Positions 19,777-26,124 of a stretch of 64,000 nt of DNA are shown here, piece after piece. The notes under the pieces were generated by a model. That model had not been told where the DNA came from. It did no database searches and saw only the letters and a program-made list of their open reading frames with translations. Each line of letters begins with the position of its first letter. Position 1 is the stretch's first letter. A program made the position numbers and the translations under genes. The stretch is from Halogranum rubrum (lineage in GTDB: Archaea; Halobacteriota; Halobacteria; Halobacteriales; Haloferacaceae), in contig NZ_FOTC01000005.1 of NCBI RefSeq assembly GCF_900114455.1, positions 124,001 through 188,000 of the forward strand. The letters are read 5' to 3'.

Positions 19777-19798
19777 CACTCGTCTCACTCGTGTGTAT

Positions 19799-20350
19799 AT
19801 GCCTGCCGACCGCGTGACGGTCTCACTCGACGACGACACGGCAGCAGCGTTGGCGGACCTCACCGACCGAACCGGCGAGGGCCAAAGCGAGGTCATCCGT
19901 CGGGCACTCACCTTCTACGCTGCGAACTTCGACGCTGCGAGCACAGACTCCGGACCGAATCTCGCCGCCTACCACCGGATGCTCTCTGGCGGCGAGCACG
20001 TCCTACTCGACATCGACTTTCTGCACTGCTTTCTGGACCACGTCACCGACGCGAACGGCGACCCGGACCCGGAGTTCGCGGCGGCGGCCGACACCGTCTC
20101 GGACTACCACGCCCGCGAGTACGCCGACCGATTCGACAACGTCGGCGACCTGTTGGAGTGGCTCTCGTTCTGCGGGTTCCTCTCCGTCCGAGCGACGGAG
20201 GGCGACACCTACCACGTCGTCTTCCCGTCGGCCGAACTCCGGTGGTTCATGACCCGTTTCATCGAGCGAAGCGTCCGTGACCTCCCGTTCGAACTCGACG
20301 TCGAACAGAGCGTCTCGAAGGTGCTCATTACGGAACGCCGACCGACGTAA
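19799..20350 (+). CDS. Ribbon-helix-helix domain protein, likely transcription regulator
   Basis: The product has 183 residues from ATG 19799; a GTG two codons earlier is possible. Residues 3-45 (DRVTVSLDDDTAAALADLTD, then GQSEVIRRALTFYA) are a CopG-type ribbon-helix-helix DNA-binding domain. The remaining 135 residues form a haloarchaeal domain with no motif known to me, which could sense a ligand or mediate pairing. It sits alone between nrdB and the Nramp-like operon, so it may regulate either; this is inference. Confidence 0.7.
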   Translation: MPADRVTVSLDDDTAAALADLTDRTGEGQSEVIRRALTFYAANFDAASTDSGPNLAAYHRMLSGGEHVLLDIDFLHCFLDHVTDANGDPDPEFAAAADTVSDYHAREYADRFDNVGDLLEWLSFCGFLSVRATEGDTYHVVFPSAELRWFMTRFIERSVRDLPFELDVEQSVSKVLITERRPT

Positions 20351-20499: not shown

Positions 20500-21708
20500 G
20501 TGGGCATCGTAGAACGACTCAGAGCTATCGGACCGGGTGCGATGGTCGCCGCCGCGTTCATCGGACCGGGGACGGTCACGACGGCGTCGGTAACGGGCGC
20601 GCAGTTCGGCTACGCGCTCATCTGGACCATCGCGTTCTCTGTCGTCGCCACCATCGTCCTACAGGAGATGAGCGCCCGACTCGGCCTCGTCACCCGCGAA
20701 GGACTCGGCGAAGCGTTACGCAATCGCTTCGACAACCAGATACTCCAGTACGTCAGCGTCGCACTCGTCGTCAGTGCCATCGGTATCGGGACTGCGGCCT
20801 ACGAGACGGGTAACATCCTCGGCGGCGCGGCGGGACTGGAGACGGTCACGGGTATTCCCGCCTCGCTGTGGGGACCGCTGATGGGTATCATCGCCGGAGC
20901 ACTCCTGTGGACCGGCAAGTACGAACTCATCGAACGGGCGCTCGTCGCGCTCGTCGCCATCATGGGTATCTCCTTCCTCATCGACGCCATCCTCATCGGC
21001 CCGGATATCGGTGCAATCGCGACCGGATTCGTTCCGACCGTCCCCGAGGGGTCGGCGTTCCTCATCACGGGTCTCGTCGGTACGACCGTCGTCGGCTACA
21101 ACCTCTTCTTGCACGCCAGCAGCGTCCAAGAGCGGTGGGCCGGTCCGGAGGACCTCGGCGAATGTCGGACCGACACCATCGCTTCCATCGTCGTCGGTGG
21201 CCTCATCACGCTCTCGATTATGATCACCGCCGCGGCCGCCTTCCCCGTCGGCACGGAGATTTCGGACGTCGGTACGATGGCCGAACAGCTCGAACCCGTC
21301 GCCGGCACGTACGCGAAAATCTTCTTCAGTATCGGTCTCTTCGCCGCTGGCTTCACCAGCGCGACGACGGCCCCGCTCGCAGGTGCCTACGCTACGGCGG
21401 GCGCACTCGGCTGGGACGACGACCTCTCGTCGACGAAGTTCCGCGCCGTCTGGATGACCATCCTCGGCGTCGGCGTCGTCTTCTCGGCCGTCGGCTTCAG
21501 CCCCGTCCAAGCAATCCTGTTCGCACAGGTCGCAAACGGCGTCCTGCTCCCCATCATCGCCCTCTTCCTCATCCTCGTCATGAACGACAGCGCGAAACTC
21601 GGCAACTACGTCAACACCACCGCACAGAACGTCCTCGGCGGACTCGTCACACTCATCGTCGTCTGGCTCGGCATCCGGAGTCTGCTCTCGCTGGCGGGGG
21701 TGTTCTGA
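20500..21708 (+). CDS. Nramp-like transporter lacking the DPGN metal motif
   Basis: The product has about 402 residues and eleven helices of the APC/Nramp fold. Canonical Nramp helix 1 has DPGN; here the aligned segment is AFIGPGTVTTAS, with Gly and Thr at the Asp and Asn positions. The helix 6 metal-binding Met-Pro-His is replaced (GTTVVGYNLFLHAS). Transport of Mn or Fe is therefore doubtful. Start GTG 20500 is chosen for the gagaggtgg element just upstream; GTG 20491 is an alternative. The stop codon abuts hyuA, with zero spacing, so it belongs to the hydantoinase-type operon and may carry its substrate. Confidence 0.8.
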   Translation: MGIVERLRAIGPGAMVAAAFIGPGTVTTASVTGAQFGYALIWTIAFSVVATIVLQEMSARLGLVTREGLGEALRNRFDNQILQYVSVALVVSAIGIGTAAYETGNILGGAAGLETVTGIPASLWGPLMGIIAGALLWTGKYELIERALVALVAIMGISFLIDAILIGPDIGAIATGFVPTVPEGSAFLITGLVGTTVVGYNLFLHASSVQERWAGPEDLGECRTDTIASIVVGGLITLSIMITAAAAFPVGTEISDVGTMAEQLEPVAGTYAKIFFSIGLFAAGFTSATTAPLAGAYATAGALGWDDDLSSTKFRAVWMTILGVGVVFSAVGFSPVQAILFAQVANGVLLPIIALFLILVMNDSAKLGNYVNTTAQNVLGGLVTLIVVWLGIRSLLSLAGVF

Positions 21709-23730
21709 ATGGACGGTGAGACGCCAGAGACGACCGTCGGCGTCGACGTCGGCGGGACGTTCACCGACGTCGTCCTGCTTCGGGACAACAGTCTCGTCAC
21801 CGCGAAGGTGCCGAGTACGGCGGACCAGAGCGTCGGCGTCATGGACGGCATCGAGAAGGCCTGCGAGAAGGCGGGCGTCGCTCCCGACACCATCGACGAC
21901 TTCGCGCACGCGATGACCGTCTCGGTCAACGCGCTCCTCGAAGAAGACGGCGCGAAGACGGCGCTCGTCACCACCGAGGGGTTCCGCGACGTACTCGAAA
22001 TCGGCCGACAGGAGCGTCCGTCGCTCTACGATTTCGACGCCGACAAACCGACGCCGCTGGTGCCGCGTCGACGACGGTTCACCGTCGACGAACGCGCCAC
22101 GCCCGAGGGCGTCACCGAATCGGTCGACGCCGACGCCCTCGACGACGTGGTGGCGTCGGTGAAGGCATCGGAGGCAGAAGCTGTCGCCGTCTGTCTCCTC
22201 CACGCCTACGCCCACCCGGAGAACGAGTCGGCCGTCGCCAGCGTCTTAGACGACGAACTCGACGTACCCGTCTCCGTCTCTCACGAGGTACTGGCGGAGT
22301 TCCGTGAGTACGAGCGCACCTCGACTACCGTCGCCGACGCCTACGTCACGCCGGCCATCGACGCCTACATCGGGCGACTGGTCGACAGAGCGGCCGACGC
22401 GGGCGTCCCCGAACCCAGCGTGATGCAGGCCAACGGCGGTATCACCGACGCGACGACAGTCAGAGAACACGCCGTCCGGACCTGCATGTCTGGGCCGGCG
22501 GCGGGTGTCGTCGGTGCTCGCGCGAGTGTCGGCGACGTCGCCGCCGACCGTGACCTCACCGGCCTCGTCACCTTCGACATGGGCGGCACCTCCAGCGACG
22601 TCAGTCTCGTCCGTGACGGCGACGTCGAACAGACGACGAACGCCGAAATCAACGGTCGACCCATCAAGACGCCGATGGTCGACGTGACGACCGTCGGCGC
22701 GGGCGGCGGGAGTAAAGGCTGGGTCGACCCTGGCGGCGCGCTCCGAATCGGTCCTGAATCCGCTGGTGCCGAACCCGGCCCGGTCTGCTACGGTCGCGGC
22801 GGCACCGTTCCGACCGTCACCGACGCGAACGTCGTCCTCGGCTACATCGGCGACAGCACCAGTCTCGGGGGCGAACTCTCCATCGACGTCGACGCCGCCC
22901 GCGACTCTCTCGCGGAACTCGCAGACGAGGCGGGACTCGACGGACCGCTCGACGCCGCACAGGGGATGTACCGCGTCGCCAACGCGACGATGACGCGCGC
23001 CATCCGCGCCGTCACGCTCGAACGCGGCTACGACCCGCGGAACTTCGGTCTCGTCGCCTTCGGCGGCGCGGGGCCGATGCACGCCGCCGCCCTCGCCGAC
23101 CGACTCGACATCGGGACGGTCGTCGCGCCGCGTGCCTGCGGCGTCCTCTCGGCGTTCGGCTTGCTCGCGGCCGACGAGAAACACGACGCCGTCCGGACGC
23201 GACGACAGTCGCTCGCCTCCGTCGACGTCGAGAACGTCGAAACCGCCTACGACGAACTGGAAGCGTCGGTTCGCGACGAGTGTAGCGACCCCGAGGCGGC
23301 CGTCGTCACCCGCCGCGCCGACCTCCGCTACGCCGGGCAGAGTTTCGAACTCACCGTGCCCGCCGACCGGCCGTTCGACCCCGAGACGGCGAAAGAGCGG
23401 TTCCACGCCGCCCACGAGAACACCTACGGCTACCGGATGGACGAGTCGGTCGACCTCGTGAACGTCCGTGCGGAGGCGGTGGTAGAACGGCCCGACCCCT
23501 CGGTCTCCTACGACGCACCTGGCGACGCCGTCGTCGACGAACGCGAAGCGCACTTCGCCGACGGGTCGTACGCGACGACTATCTACGACCGTGAACGTCT
23601 CCCGCCCGGTGAGACCGTGTCCGGGCCGGCAGTGCTCGAACAGGACGAGAGCACCGTCGTCGTCCCGCCAGCGTGGGAGGCGACCGTGCGGGTCGATGGG
23701 TCGCTCGTCCTCACGGAGGTGACGGCATGA
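21709..23730 (+). CDS. hyuA: Hydantoinase/5-oxoprolinase subunit A
   Basis: The product has 673 residues. The N-terminal actin/ASKHA phosphate-binding loop is VGVDVGGTFTDVVLL (8-22). The middle domain holds VTFDMGGTSSDVSLV and VDVTTVGAGGGSKGWVDPGG, the ATPase core, followed by FGLVAFGGAGPMHAAALAD and a C-terminal domain of the Hydantoinase_A family. With HyuB it forms an ATP-dependent amidohydrolase acting on 5-oxoproline, N-methylhydantoin or similar cyclic amides. Which of these cannot be read here. It overlaps hyuB by 4 bases (ATGA). Confidence 0.92.
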   Translation: MDGETPETTVGVDVGGTFTDVVLLRDNSLVTAKVPSTADQSVGVMDGIEKACEKAGVAPDTIDDFAHAMTVSVNALLEEDGAKTALVTTEGFRDVLEIGRQERPSLYDFDADKPTPLVPRRRRFTVDERATPEGVTESVDADALDDVVASVKASEAEAVAVCLLHAYAHPENESAVASVLDDELDVPVSVSHEVLAEFREYERTSTTVADAYVTPAIDAYIGRLVDRAADAGVPEPSVMQANGGITDATTVREHAVRTCMSGPAAGVVGARASVGDVAADRDLTGLVTFDMGGTSSDVSLVRDGDVEQTTNAEINGRPIKTPMVDVTTVGAGGGSKGWVDPGGALRIGPESAGAEPGPVCYGRGGTVPTVTDANVVLGYIGDSTSLGGELSIDVDAARDSLAELADEAGLDGPLDAAQGMYRVANATMTRAIRAVTLERGYDPRNFGLVAFGGAGPMHAAALADRLDIGTVVAPRACGVLSAFGLLAADEKHDAVRTRRQSLASVDVENVETAYDELEASVRDECSDPEAAVVTRRADLRYAGQSFELTVPADRPFDPETAKERFHAAHENTYGYRMDESVDLVNVRAEAVVERPDPSVSYDAPGDAVVDEREAHFADGSYATTIYDRERLPPGETVSGPAVLEQDESTVVVPPAWEATVRVDGSLVLTEVTA

Positions 23731-25382
23731 GCGAGACGGACGTCGACGCCGTGACGCTGGAAATCCTCCGCAACCAGTTGGAGAGCGTCGCCGAAGAGAT
23801 GGGCCAAGTGCTCATCACCGGGTCGTACTCGCCGAACATCAAGGAGCGACAGGACTGCTCGACGGCCCTCTTCGACGCCGAGGGGCGGATGATTGCCCAA
23901 GCCGAACACATCCCGGTCCACCTCGGGGCGATGCCGGAAGCCGTCGACGCGGTGAGAGAGCGAGACCCGAAACCGGGCGACGTGTTCGTCCTGAACGACC
24001 CGTTCGACGGCGGGACACATCTGCCCGACGTGACGCTCGTCTCGCCGCTCGCGCCAGAAGAAGAAATCGTCGGCTACGCGGTCTCGCGCGCCCACCACGC
24101 CGACGTCGGCGGGATGACACCCGGCAGTATGCCCGCCGGTGCACGCGAAATCTATCAGGAGGGCCTGCGTCTGCCGCCGACCCGACTCGTCGCCGGCGGC
24201 GACGTCGTCGAGGACGTGATGGCACTCATCCTCGCGAACGTCCGGACGCCCGACGAGCGCCGTGCGGACCTCCGCGCCCAAATCGCGGCAAACGAGCGAG
24301 CAGAAGAGCGACTCGGTGACCTCATCGACGAACACGGCGAGTTGGTGCTCGACGCGTTCGACGCGGTCATCGACTACTCCCGAGAACGCATCGCGAGCGA
24401 GATTCGTGACCTCCCCGACGGGACGTACACCGCCCGCGACGTGCTCGAAGGCGACGGCGTCCTCGAACACGAGTCGGGTGTCGACCCCGAGAGCGTCGAG
24501 ATTCCCATCGAGACGTCCGTCACCGTCGACGGCGACGAGATTCTCGTCGACTTCGAGGGCACGGCCGACCAAGTACCGGGGAATCTCAACGCGCCACTGG
24601 CCGTCGCGAAGAGCGCCGTCTACTTCGTCGTCCGATGCGTGACCGACCCGGAGATTCCGCCGAACCAGGGCTGTTACGACCCGGTGACGCTCCGGGTTCC
24701 GGAAGGCTCCTTACTGAACCCCGAACTTCCCGCCGCCGTCGTCGGCGGCAACGTCGAGACCAGTCAACGCGTCACCGACGTCGTCCTCGCGGCCTTCGGC
24801 GAGGCGGTGCCGAACCGCGTCCCGGCCGGAGGCCAGGGGACGATGAACAACCTCATCGTCGGCAGTCGCACGGGCTCTTTCACCTACTACGAGACCATCG
24901 GCGGCGGGTTCGGTGCGCGGCCGACGAAAGACGGGATGGACGGCGTACAGGTCGGCATGACCAACACGCTCAACACACCCGTCGAAGCACTCGAAACGGC
25001 CTACCCGCTCCACGTCGAACGCTACGGCTTGCGGCCGAACAGCGGCGGCGACGGCCGGTTCCGCGGCGGTCTCGGTCTCGAACGCTCGGTCACCGTCCAA
25101 GAGGACGCGACCGTCTCGCTGTTGACCGAACGGCGGCGCATCCCGCCTGCAGGTCTGGCTGGCGGCAAAGACGGCGCAGTCGGTCGAAATCTCGTCGACG
25201 GCGAACCCGTCGCCGCGAAGACGTCCGTCGACGTCGACGCCGGAACGACGGTCACGGTGCTCACGCCCGGCGGCGGCGGTCACGGCGACCCGGCCGAGCG
25301 AGACCCGGAACTGCGAGAACGGGACCGACTGGACGAGAAGGTCGAGGAGGCCCAAGAGGGCGAGACGGTGGACGATGTCTGA
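23727..25382 (+). CDS. hyuB: Hydantoinase/5-oxoprolinase subunit B
   Basis: The product has 551 residues, a full-length Hydantoinase_B protein: DAVTLEILRNQLESVAEEMG at the start, then ERQDCSTALFD, FVLNDPFDGGTHLPDVTLV, HHADVGGMTPGSMP and a C-terminal LTPGGGGHGDP. Start ATG 23727 overlaps the hyuA stop. The acidic tail overlaps the racemase-like gene by 8 bases, so three enzymes are translationally coupled. Confidence 0.92.
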   Translation: MSETDVDAVTLEILRNQLESVAEEMGQVLITGSYSPNIKERQDCSTALFDAEGRMIAQAEHIPVHLGAMPEAVDAVRERDPKPGDVFVLNDPFDGGTHLPDVTLVSPLAPEEEIVGYAVSRAHHADVGGMTPGSMPAGAREIYQEGLRLPPTRLVAGGDVVEDVMALILANVRTPDERRADLRAQIAANERAEERLGDLIDEHGELVLDAFDAVIDYSRERIASEIRDLPDGTYTARDVLEGDGVLEHESGVDPESVEIPIETSVTVDGDEILVDFEGTADQVPGNLNAPLAVAKSAVYFVVRCVTDPEIPPNQGCYDPVTLRVPEGSLLNPELPAAVVGGNVETSQRVTDVVLAAFGEAVPNRVPAGGQGTMNNLIVGSRTGSFTYYETIGGGFGARPTKDGMDGVQVGMTNTLNTPVEALETAYPLHVERYGLRPNSGGDGRFRGGLGLERSVTVQEDATVSLLTERRRIPPAGLAGGKDGAVGRNLVDGEPVAAKTSVDVDAGTTVTVLTPGGGGHGDPAERDPELRERDRLDEKVEEAQEGETVDDV

Positions 25383-26124
25383 CTTCGCCGACCCGACGGC
25401 CGACGGCGACCGACTGAAACTCGGCGTCGTCGTCCCCTCGTCGAACACGACGGTCGAACCGGAGTTCGCCCACTGGGTTTCGAACGCGTCGGTCCACGCG
25501 GCCCGGATGCGCCTCGTCGACGTGACCGTCGACGGACTCGACACGATGGCCGACGACGCGGTGGCCGCGGCCGAGCGACTCGCGGACGCCGACGTCGACG
25601 CCGTCGCCTACGCCTGCACGACGGGCAGTCTCGTCCACGGCCACGGCTTCGACGCCGAGTTAGAAGACCGACTCGGCGACGCCGCGGGCGTCCCCGCGGT
25701 GGCGACGGCGCTGTCGGTTCGTCGGCTCTTCGACGCCCTCGACACGTCTCGCGTCGCCGTGGCGACGCCGTACATCGACGAGTTGAACGAACGCGAACGC
25801 TCGTACCTCGACGAATCGGGGTTCGACGTCGCCTGTCTCGACGGTCGCGGCATCGAGCGAAACACCGACATCGGGAGACTCACTCCCGCAGACGCCCGCG
25901 AACAGGCGCTCGCAGTATTGGAAACGGCACCCGACGTCGACACGCTGTTCGTCTCGTGTACGAACTACCCGACGCTCGCAGTCGTCGACGAGTTAGCAGA
26001 ACGCGGCGTGTCGGTCGTCACGAGCAACCTCGCGACGCTCTGGGACCTCTCGCGTGTGACGGGTCTCGACACTGACGCGTTACCTGGCGACCTGCCGTCG
26101 CCGTCGTCGCCGACGCTGGACTGA
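25375..26124 (+). CDS. Asp/Glu racemase superfamily protein, maleate isomerase-like
   Basis: The product has 249 residues. Two cysteines in the superfamily's catalytic positions are visible: AYACTTGSL (about Cys82) and LFVSCTNYPT (about Cys198), with an N-terminal LGVVVPSSNTTVEPEF motif typical of maleate cis-trans isomerase and arylmalonate decarboxylase relatives. In this operon it could racemise a hydantoin, an amino acid or an oxoproline-type substrate before or after HyuAB. It is convergent with the SPFH gene across 19 bases. Confidence 0.82.
   Translation: MSDFADPTADGDRLKLGVVVPSSNTTVEPEFAHWVSNASVHAARMRLVDVTVDGLDTMADDAVAAAERLADADVDAVAYACTTGSLVHGHGFDAELEDRLGDAAGVPAVATALSVRRLFDALDTSRVAVATPYIDELNERERSYLDESGFDVACLDGRGIERNTDIGRLTPADAREQALAVLETAPDVDTLFVSCTNYPTLAVVDELAERGVSVVTSNLATLWDLSRVTGLDTDALPGDLPSPSSPTLD

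Follow-up and report, generated by a model that had tools for sequence, protein, structure and literature searches.

A haloarchaeal Nramp-fold transporter without metal ligands, linked to an ATP-dependent lactamase, is a candidate importer of 5-oxoproline

The DNA analysed here (the window) is a stretch of 64,000 nucleotides of Halogranum rubrum (contig NZ_FOTC01000005.1, positions 124,001 to 188,000), which belongs to a genome of 4.57 Mb. In this stretch, the gene of a transporter with the Nramp fold stands directly before those of HyuA and HyuB, the subunits of an ATP-dependent lactamase. The genes concerned, in window coordinates, are the following:

19793..20350, + strand: ribbon-helix-helix (RHH) protein (185 aa, C-terminal region conserved; PF01402, 37.2 bits), probable regulator of the module
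20500..21708, + strand: Nramp-fold transporter without metal ligands (GPGT/VVGYN; PF01566, 328.6 bits), proposed importer of 5-oxoproline or another lactam
21709..23730, + strand: HyuA, ATP-binding subunit of an ATP-dependent lactamase of the oxoprolinase/hydantoinase family (PF05378, PF01968, PF19278)
23727..25382, + strand: HyuB, metal-dependent hydrolase subunit (PF02538, 683.8 bits)
25375..26124, + strand: protein of the arylmalonate decarboxylase (AMDase)/maleate isomerase family with cysteines C81 and C195 (PF17645, 134.1 bits), possible racemase or isomerase acting on the lactam or its product

The genes are tightly packed. The transporter gene starts with GTG and its stop codon occupies positions 21706-21708, the ATG of hyuA at 21709 being the very next base; hyuB begins with the ATG at 23727 and overlaps hyuA, whose stop codon ends at 23730, by 4 bp, and the AMDase-like gene, starting at 25375, overlaps the end of hyuB (25382) by 8 bp. 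The preliminary description of this stretch had given the same abutting and overlapping arrangement, with which the gene coordinates agree; it had also spoken of a transporter "fused" into the operon, of which the operon linkage holds, while the window contains no gene fusion. The RHH gene sits just upstream of the transporter. Ribonucleotide reductase genes flank the operon on one side, and a SPFH/Band-7 gene on the opposite strand follows it. A chance gene order can be excluded, because the succession transporter-HyuA-HyuB recurs in 37 of the 39 haloarchaeal genomes that have the transporter, H. rubrum included.

The score of the transporter against PF01566 exceeds the cut-off of 29.8 bits, and its NCBIfam matches are all Mn2+ or divalent-metal Nramp models, one of them above its cut-off. 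Its helix 1 reads AAAFIGPGTVTTAS and its helix 6 reads GTTVVGYNLFLHAS. Alignment with the Deinococcus Nramp (DraNramp, in its residue numbering) replaces D56 by G, N59 by T, M230 by V, H232 by Y and E134 of transmembrane helix 3 by N. In other words, the DPGN motif of helix 1 has become GPGT, VMPH of helix 6 has become VVGY and the Glu of helix 3 is Asn, so that the canonical Slc11/Nramp signature (DPGN in helix 1, MPH in helix 6, Glu in helix 3) is absent at all three places. The GPGT motif and the VGYN at the helix 6 metal site, singled out in the preliminary description, are borne out by this alignment. Among 45 deduplicated rows of the same motif class, Gly22, Thr25, Val198 and Tyr200 are invariant, an invariance that is partly given by definition since the classes were defined by the motif itself (Nramp open reading frames of 330 aa or less were excluded from the motif table). 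Independently of the class definition, no row of another motif class falls within the clade of the window protein in the tree. The DPGN rows have Asp and Asn in 18 of 18 cases, and Met and His in 17 of 18. A DPGN transporter altered by a local sequencing error was ruled out, as the GPGT motif recurs throughout the clade.

An AlphaFold2 model of the transporter, built from an alignment of 36 sequences (predicted local distance difference test score, pLDDT, 85.8; predicted template modelling score, pTM, 0.86), retains the breaks in helices 1 and 6, located at residues 20-21 and 196-197, and shows the ten-helix inverted repeat of the LeuT/APC fold. Its best match is the outward-open DraNramp structure 6d91 (387 residues, root-mean-square deviation 2.6, Z 48.8, 26% identity); it also matches 7qji, of the NRMT Mg2+ transporters (Z 38.2), and AdiC (Z about 29). 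The fold, as modelled, is that of an Nramp minus the Nramp metal ligands.

The H. rubrum genome encodes three PF01566 proteins, none of them with DPGN. In place of DPGN/MPH, one paralogue of the window protein (L003/L074), which by eye adjoins a TauE/SafE-like gene, has GSGS/ALWPNF, and the other (L002/L073) has GPAT/VHITLV. Likewise, of the 59 Nramp proteins in the haloarchaeal loci (L033-L092), a single one (L033) has both DPGN and MPH, while the others fall into several motif groups without metal ligands. With one such protein in 59, most "Mn2+ transporter" annotations of haloarchaeal proteins cannot be relied on.

PF01566 proteins occur in 88 of the 145 Halobacteria genomes, and 39 of the 88, H. 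rubrum included, have the window type (counted by hand). We fetched all 38 window-type matches from the other genomes along with 21 other Nramp regions, two of which are the paralogues just described. The haloarchaeal counts rest on this genome sample; the wider locus sets overlap in species and are not independent. In 36 of these 38 genomes, as in the window, HyuA and HyuB are encoded on the strand of the transporter and no more than 300 bp away from it; an RHH homologue lies upstream of the transporter in 35, and an AMDase-like gene is present in 23. Judged by this recurrence, the RHH gene at 19793-20350 belongs to the conserved module. HyuB was found in 136 of the 145 genomes, with or without the transporter. 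The enzyme is thus near-universal and the transporter with its regulator an optional cassette, which suits a universal damage product and a metabolite arising in every cell and sometimes worth importing, as is the case for 5-oxoproline (PMC13274462). Mutual exclusion between the transporter and PxpA, a subunit of the 5-oxoprolinase PxpABC, was not seen in Halobacteria, where pxpA occurs in 17 of the 145 genomes and 7 of these also have the transporter (compared by hand); no Nramp gene was seen closer than about 1.5 kb to any of the 17.

Bacterial loci were collected by a profile search of genome contigs with the haloarchaeal transporter alignment, and the best 80 loci were taken. Among them, 37 are bacterial loci of the clade; the sequence of the transporter was the sole criterion in finding them, and their neighbours played no part. 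In 26 of the 37, pxpA or pxpB follows within 300 bp on the same strand; in one more (L136), pxpA lies downstream beyond a D-glutamate-cyclase gene. Four others have a fused HyuA-HyuB of 1252 aa (866 aa in one truncated by its contig) starting 19-21 bp downstream. A 5-oxoprolinase-type enzyme therefore accompanies the transporter in 31 of the 37 loci (27 with PxpABC, 4 with fused HyuAB). Neither pxp nor Hyu neighbours were seen in the remaining 6, in two of which the sequence ends 5 bp (L153) or 1.2 kb (L135) past the transporter gene. In a representative cluster (L138), PxpA scores above its NCBIfam subfamily cut-off and PxpB above its equivalog cut-off, while PxpC is above the broader family model and below the PxpC equivalog. 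By comparison, a pxp or Hyu gene within 300 bp was found in none of 44 DPGN rows and none of 18 NRMT-like rows; in two DPGN rows, HyuA lies at a distance of about 2.4 kb. Of the Bacilli matches, 14 of 84 were left out, being fragments and low-scoring sequences, mostly YcsG-like by score; all 14 gammaproteobacterial places were included. The cyclase gene of the L136 cluster is of the D-glutamate cyclase family (PF07286) and a similar gene is seen by eye in L144, which hints that 5-oxo-D-proline is part of the pathway.

In a tree of 115 rows (near-identical rows were collapsed for all trees), the 45 rows of the window clade, from Halobacteria, Bacteroidota, Bacillota and Gammaproteobacteria, form one group with a support of 99 in the Shimodaira-Hasegawa-like approximate likelihood ratio test (SH-aLRT), apart from the DPGN, the NRMT-like and the YcsG-type groups. 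The last of these is named after YcsG, an Nramp-family protein of Bacillus subtilis, and we take it to be the YcsG type by its gene order rather than by a named sequence. The tree comparison proposed in the preliminary description thus places the DPGN-less sequences in a clade of their own, beside 5-oxoprolinase or HyuAB genes across phyla; the grouping with DPGN Mn2+ transporters that it had named as contrary to its idea is not what the tree gives. A second, careful tree was made from 48 clade rows and 6 outgroup rows. There, the haloarchaeal HyuAB-linked rows (support 100/99) group with PxpABC-linked rows of Bacillota (97/94), and the Bacteroidales rows with fused HyuAB (100/100) lie inside a PxpABC-linked clade (100/98). 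The pxp versus hyu state of the neighbours requires two changes on this tree, and a single change is allowed in 0% of 200 bootstrap trees. On this phylogeny, one transporter branch has on at least two occasions come to stand with an enzyme differing from that of its relatives. PxpABC is treated as a class of oxoprolinase separate from the CapAB/HyuAB/OPLAH type (PMC8453981). Two swaps between such enzymes under one transporter point to a shared substrate, most likely 5-oxoproline; indeed, our main argument is that the swaps, between classes that share a kind of reaction, indicate a link of the substrate type rather than of the metal type.

We estimate at roughly 65% the probability that the operon serves the uptake and ring opening of 5-oxoproline (pyroglutamate), or of a glutamate-derived lactam very close to it, and, judging from the gene neighbourhoods, the whole transporter branch is likely to import 5-oxoproline or some similar molecule derived from glutamate. 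By alternating access of the LeuT type, the Nramp-fold protein would bring the organic solute into the cell; where the metal site used to be, between the two broken helices, there would be a small neutral pocket (Gly22, Thr25, Thr27, Val198 and Tyr200). HyuA would then phosphorylate the lactam with ATP and the metal centre of HyuB would hydrolyse the phosphorylated lactam to glutamate, while the AMDase-like two-cysteine protein could supply the right stereoisomer and the RHH protein could regulate the cassette. The preliminary description had put forward a DPGN-less sub-branch of Nramp proteins importing a cyclic amide; its clade and neighbourhoods are found; what we infer from them is which substrate is carried, in which direction and coupled to which ion, and what the AMDase-like and RHH proteins do. 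Several observations weigh against our reading and are given below with the alternatives to which they lend weight; in addition, we found in the literature no transport assay of any member of the window clade.

The enzyme itself leaves room for other rings. HyuA and HyuB have the domains of the ATP-dependent lactamases (PF05378, PF01968, PF19278 and PF02538) and their conserved motifs, namely DxGGTxTD (DVGGTFTD) and DxGGT (DMGGTS) in HyuA, and in HyuB an Asp/His/Asp/His set that aligns with the metal ligands Asp41, His99, Asp102 and His124 of CapB. Their scores against the NCBIfam equivalogs of caprolactamase CapAB stay below the cut-offs (490.1 of 1000 and 263.4 of 1000 bits). The best PDB matches of HyuA are 7hk5, a chain labelled N-methylhydantoinase (462.5 bits), and the caprolactamase subunit CapA, 6yra (354.2 bits), and HyuA/HyuB are closer to these two than to the fused HyuAB of Bacteroidales (31% and 37% for the haloarchaeal HyuA and HyuB of L156 in that comparison). 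As far as its sequence goes, HyuAB does not identify the lactam opened. We also tried to read the ring from the residues Lys40 and Asn269 of the caprolactamase paper; Lys40 is off the chain count and position 269 is uninformative, and nothing was drawn from them. The haloarchaeal transporter might then import another cyclic amide, such as hydantoin, N-methylhydantoin or another lactam or imide, its bacterial relatives having diverged to 5-oxoproline. This would agree with the PDB matches, with the many rings opened by the CapAB/HyuAB/OPLAH family (PMC8453981) and with the bacterial pxp clusters, in which no AMDase-like gene was seen when they were screened with the window AMDase protein. However, the haloarchaeal rows are nested within PxpABC-linked bacteria, and hydantoin catabolism needs the carbamoylase HyuC (PMC8453981), of which there is none among the window genes scanned; we consider this alternative unlikely, and a hydantoin operon in particular is less likely for the same two reasons. 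The second HyuAB of the genome (L292, C6:563383-564939) adjoins by eye the gene of an isochorismatase-like hydrolase and so looks more like a hydantoinase locus. What speaks for 5-oxoproline is the predominance of PxpABC among the bacterial partners, the lack of any carbamoylase among the window genes scanned and this hydantoinase-like surrounding of the second HyuB. Of the candidate substrates named beforehand (5-oxoproline, a hydantoin or similar), the idea of a cyclic amide is thus retained, with 5-oxoproline favoured over hydantoins.

The last gene of the operon had been called racemase-like. Its product belongs to the AMDase family (cut-off for PF17645, 25.9 bits) and is only weakly similar to Asp/Glu racemases (PF01177, 27.4 bits, below the cut-off of 31). 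Both C81 and C195 are present in 50 of 54 aligned AMDase-like homologues, and two-base racemases and isomerases of the AMDase superfamily typically have two such cysteines. That the protein acts as a racemase on 5-oxoproline or glutamate is a guess.

A further explanation is that the transporter still moves a divalent metal (Mn2+ or Mg2+) for the metalloenzymes of the operon, as has been argued for MntG/YcsG and MumT. HyuB keeps its four-ligand metal site and, HyuB and the ureohydrolases described below being metalloenzymes, a supply of metal would also fit the neighbourhoods. In B. subtilis, overexpressed YcsG (Pspac-ycsG) raised cellular Mn2+, and MntR binds the promoter of the ycsG (mntG) operon (PMC10448178); in A. 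baumannii, a mumT deletion had lower Mn2+ and was complemented (PMC5050338); EleNRMT, which is related to Nramp and lacks DPGN, is known to transport Mg2+ (PMC12873925). YcsG and MumT are operon-linked Nramp-fold proteins that are not shown as members of the window clade. On the other hand, the window clade has neutral residues at all side-chain metal ligands, where NRMT-like rows keep an Asp; none of the 44 DPGN Nramps, the true metal carriers, is found in such an operon; and the partner switches occur between unrelated enzymes whose common feature is the substrate. We therefore hold metal transport to be improbable, somewhat more so than the import of another cyclic amide.

Finally, the linkage might be loose, the protein being an exporter or an unrelated amino-acid carrier co-regulated with nitrogen-catabolic lactamases. 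Two haloarchaeal genomes (L070 and L071) have the transporter without HyuAB. Conversely, in G081, a genome of the same genus, the order nrdB-HyuA-HyuB-AMDase is intact and both RHH and transporter are absent at that site (L293), so there the enzyme is independent of the transporter. The RHH gene and the transporter behave as a separable cassette: L293 lacks the pair, L070 has it but no HyuAB, and in L304 HyuAB is preceded by the RHH gene alone. Moreover, one subclade of Bacilli (L155, L169, L252, which is the same place as L203, and L253) has no pxp or Hyu genes and adjoins a gene for an arginase-family ureohydrolase. That of L155 scores 209 bits against PF00491 and falls below the agmatinase and formimidoylglutamase cut-offs, and in L253 a glutamate-dehydrogenase-like gene lies nearby (by eye); the transporter of this subclade might carry formiminoglutamate or a guanidino acid. 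In most loci the transporter gene immediately precedes those of the enzyme, and the enzyme was swapped twice independently; a loose linkage therefore seems very improbable to us. Uptake of 5-oxoproline or a close relative remains the reading that we adopt.

If this reading is right, a testable substrate becomes available for a clade that has so far been only a nameless outgroup in Nramp phylogenies. We found no link between the window clade and 5-oxoproline in the open-access literature, and an earlier mention is possible outside it. A broader proposal, to which we would give a little under even odds, is that the orphan sister group of Slc11 consists of carriers for glutamate-derived organic solutes, 5-oxoproline first. 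Were this true, and the YcsG/PxpT branch likewise, metal-transporting Nramps would have arisen from an organic-solute carrier and not the reverse; the Mn2+ assignments of operon-linked Nramp-related proteins would also need re-testing. The finding bears on an open dispute, in which YcsG was described as a Mn2+ importer in 2023 (PMC10448178) and its relative PxpT as a 5-oxoproline importer in 2026 (PMC13274462): as evidence, the pairing of a single transporter clade with two unrelated enzymes depends on neither phenotype.

Among known systems, YcsG and PxpT are alike to the window protein in having the PF01566 fold and an operon with a 5-oxoprolinase. In C. glutamicum, PxpT is needed for growth on 5-oxoproline, as seen with an in-frame deletion and its complementation, and the authors state that they cannot exclude metal transport by PxpT (PMC13274462); the B. 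subtilis authors point to possible polar effects in earlier 5-oxoproline data (PMC10448178). PxpT is 50% identical to YcsG (PMC13274462), the sole ground on which we place it in the YcsG-type clade, and therefore the experimental evidence on 5-oxoproline concerns that clade and not the window clade. The YcsG-type rows also lack DPGN, share Gly22, Thr27, Gly104, Tyr200, Asn346 and Gly347 with the window clade and lie beside pxpA, pxpB or pxpC in 11 of 12 cases. However, they form their own clade (10 rows, SH-aLRT 100) with the motif GP[GA]F/VGGY, have 18-22% identity to the window protein and are partnered by PxpABC, whereas the window protein is partnered by HyuAB. YcsG, cited in the preliminary description for its place in the 5-oxoprolinase (pxpABC) operon, accordingly belongs to a separate clade and not to the same sub-branch. 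Membership of the window protein in the YcsG clade is ruled out by the tree and this identity; in an approximately unbiased (AU) test, a single clade made up of both types is not rejected (p 0.36), a result weakened by long branches. A PDB sequence search with a YcsG-type protein matched only 10ky; 9a52, a YcsG-FabL model, came up in the fold comparison with the model of the window protein and does not name the YcsG-type clade. Among 99 Bacteroidia genomes, pxpA occurs in 7, with a window-type transporter beside it in 2 (one being the seed genome, G149), a YcsG-type one in 1, and no Nramp beside pxpA in the surrounding stretch of 4. In this class, the YcsG type (L313) and the window type (L314, L317) both stand beside pxpA, which suggests that both clades serve PxpABC. 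By these comparisons, the window clade is a second, separate 5-oxoprolinase-linked branch of the Nramp fold beside YcsG/PxpT.

Nramp-related proteins have been described in a 2026 preprint as a paraphyletic set around the metal transporters (PMC12873925). NRMTs resemble the window protein as PF01566 members without the transition-metal motif, but NRMT-like rows retain Asp in helix 1, mostly as DAG, usually show PW in helix 6 and make up a clade by themselves, whereas the window protein has Gly22. DraNramp shares the fold, and the window protein differs in having none of D56, N59, M230, H232 and E134. As for the enzyme, HyuAB resembles CapAB, OPLAH and the ATP-dependent hydantoinases in being an ATP-dependent lactamase of two subunits whose phosphate and metal motifs are conserved, and differs from CapAB in its distance from the equivalog cut-offs. 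Another counterpart of the transporter clade is the orphan type described by Cellier as the nearest Slc11 outgroup, without Mn and proton features (PMC9606685) and with the substitutions Y-x3-N in helix 3 and V/Y in helix 6 (PMC10606218). The AAYETGN and VVGY of the window protein fit both substitutions, a match by motifs and not by shared accessions, with F in place of the helix 3 Y in some haloarchaeal members. Probably, then, the window clade is this orphan sister group of Slc11.

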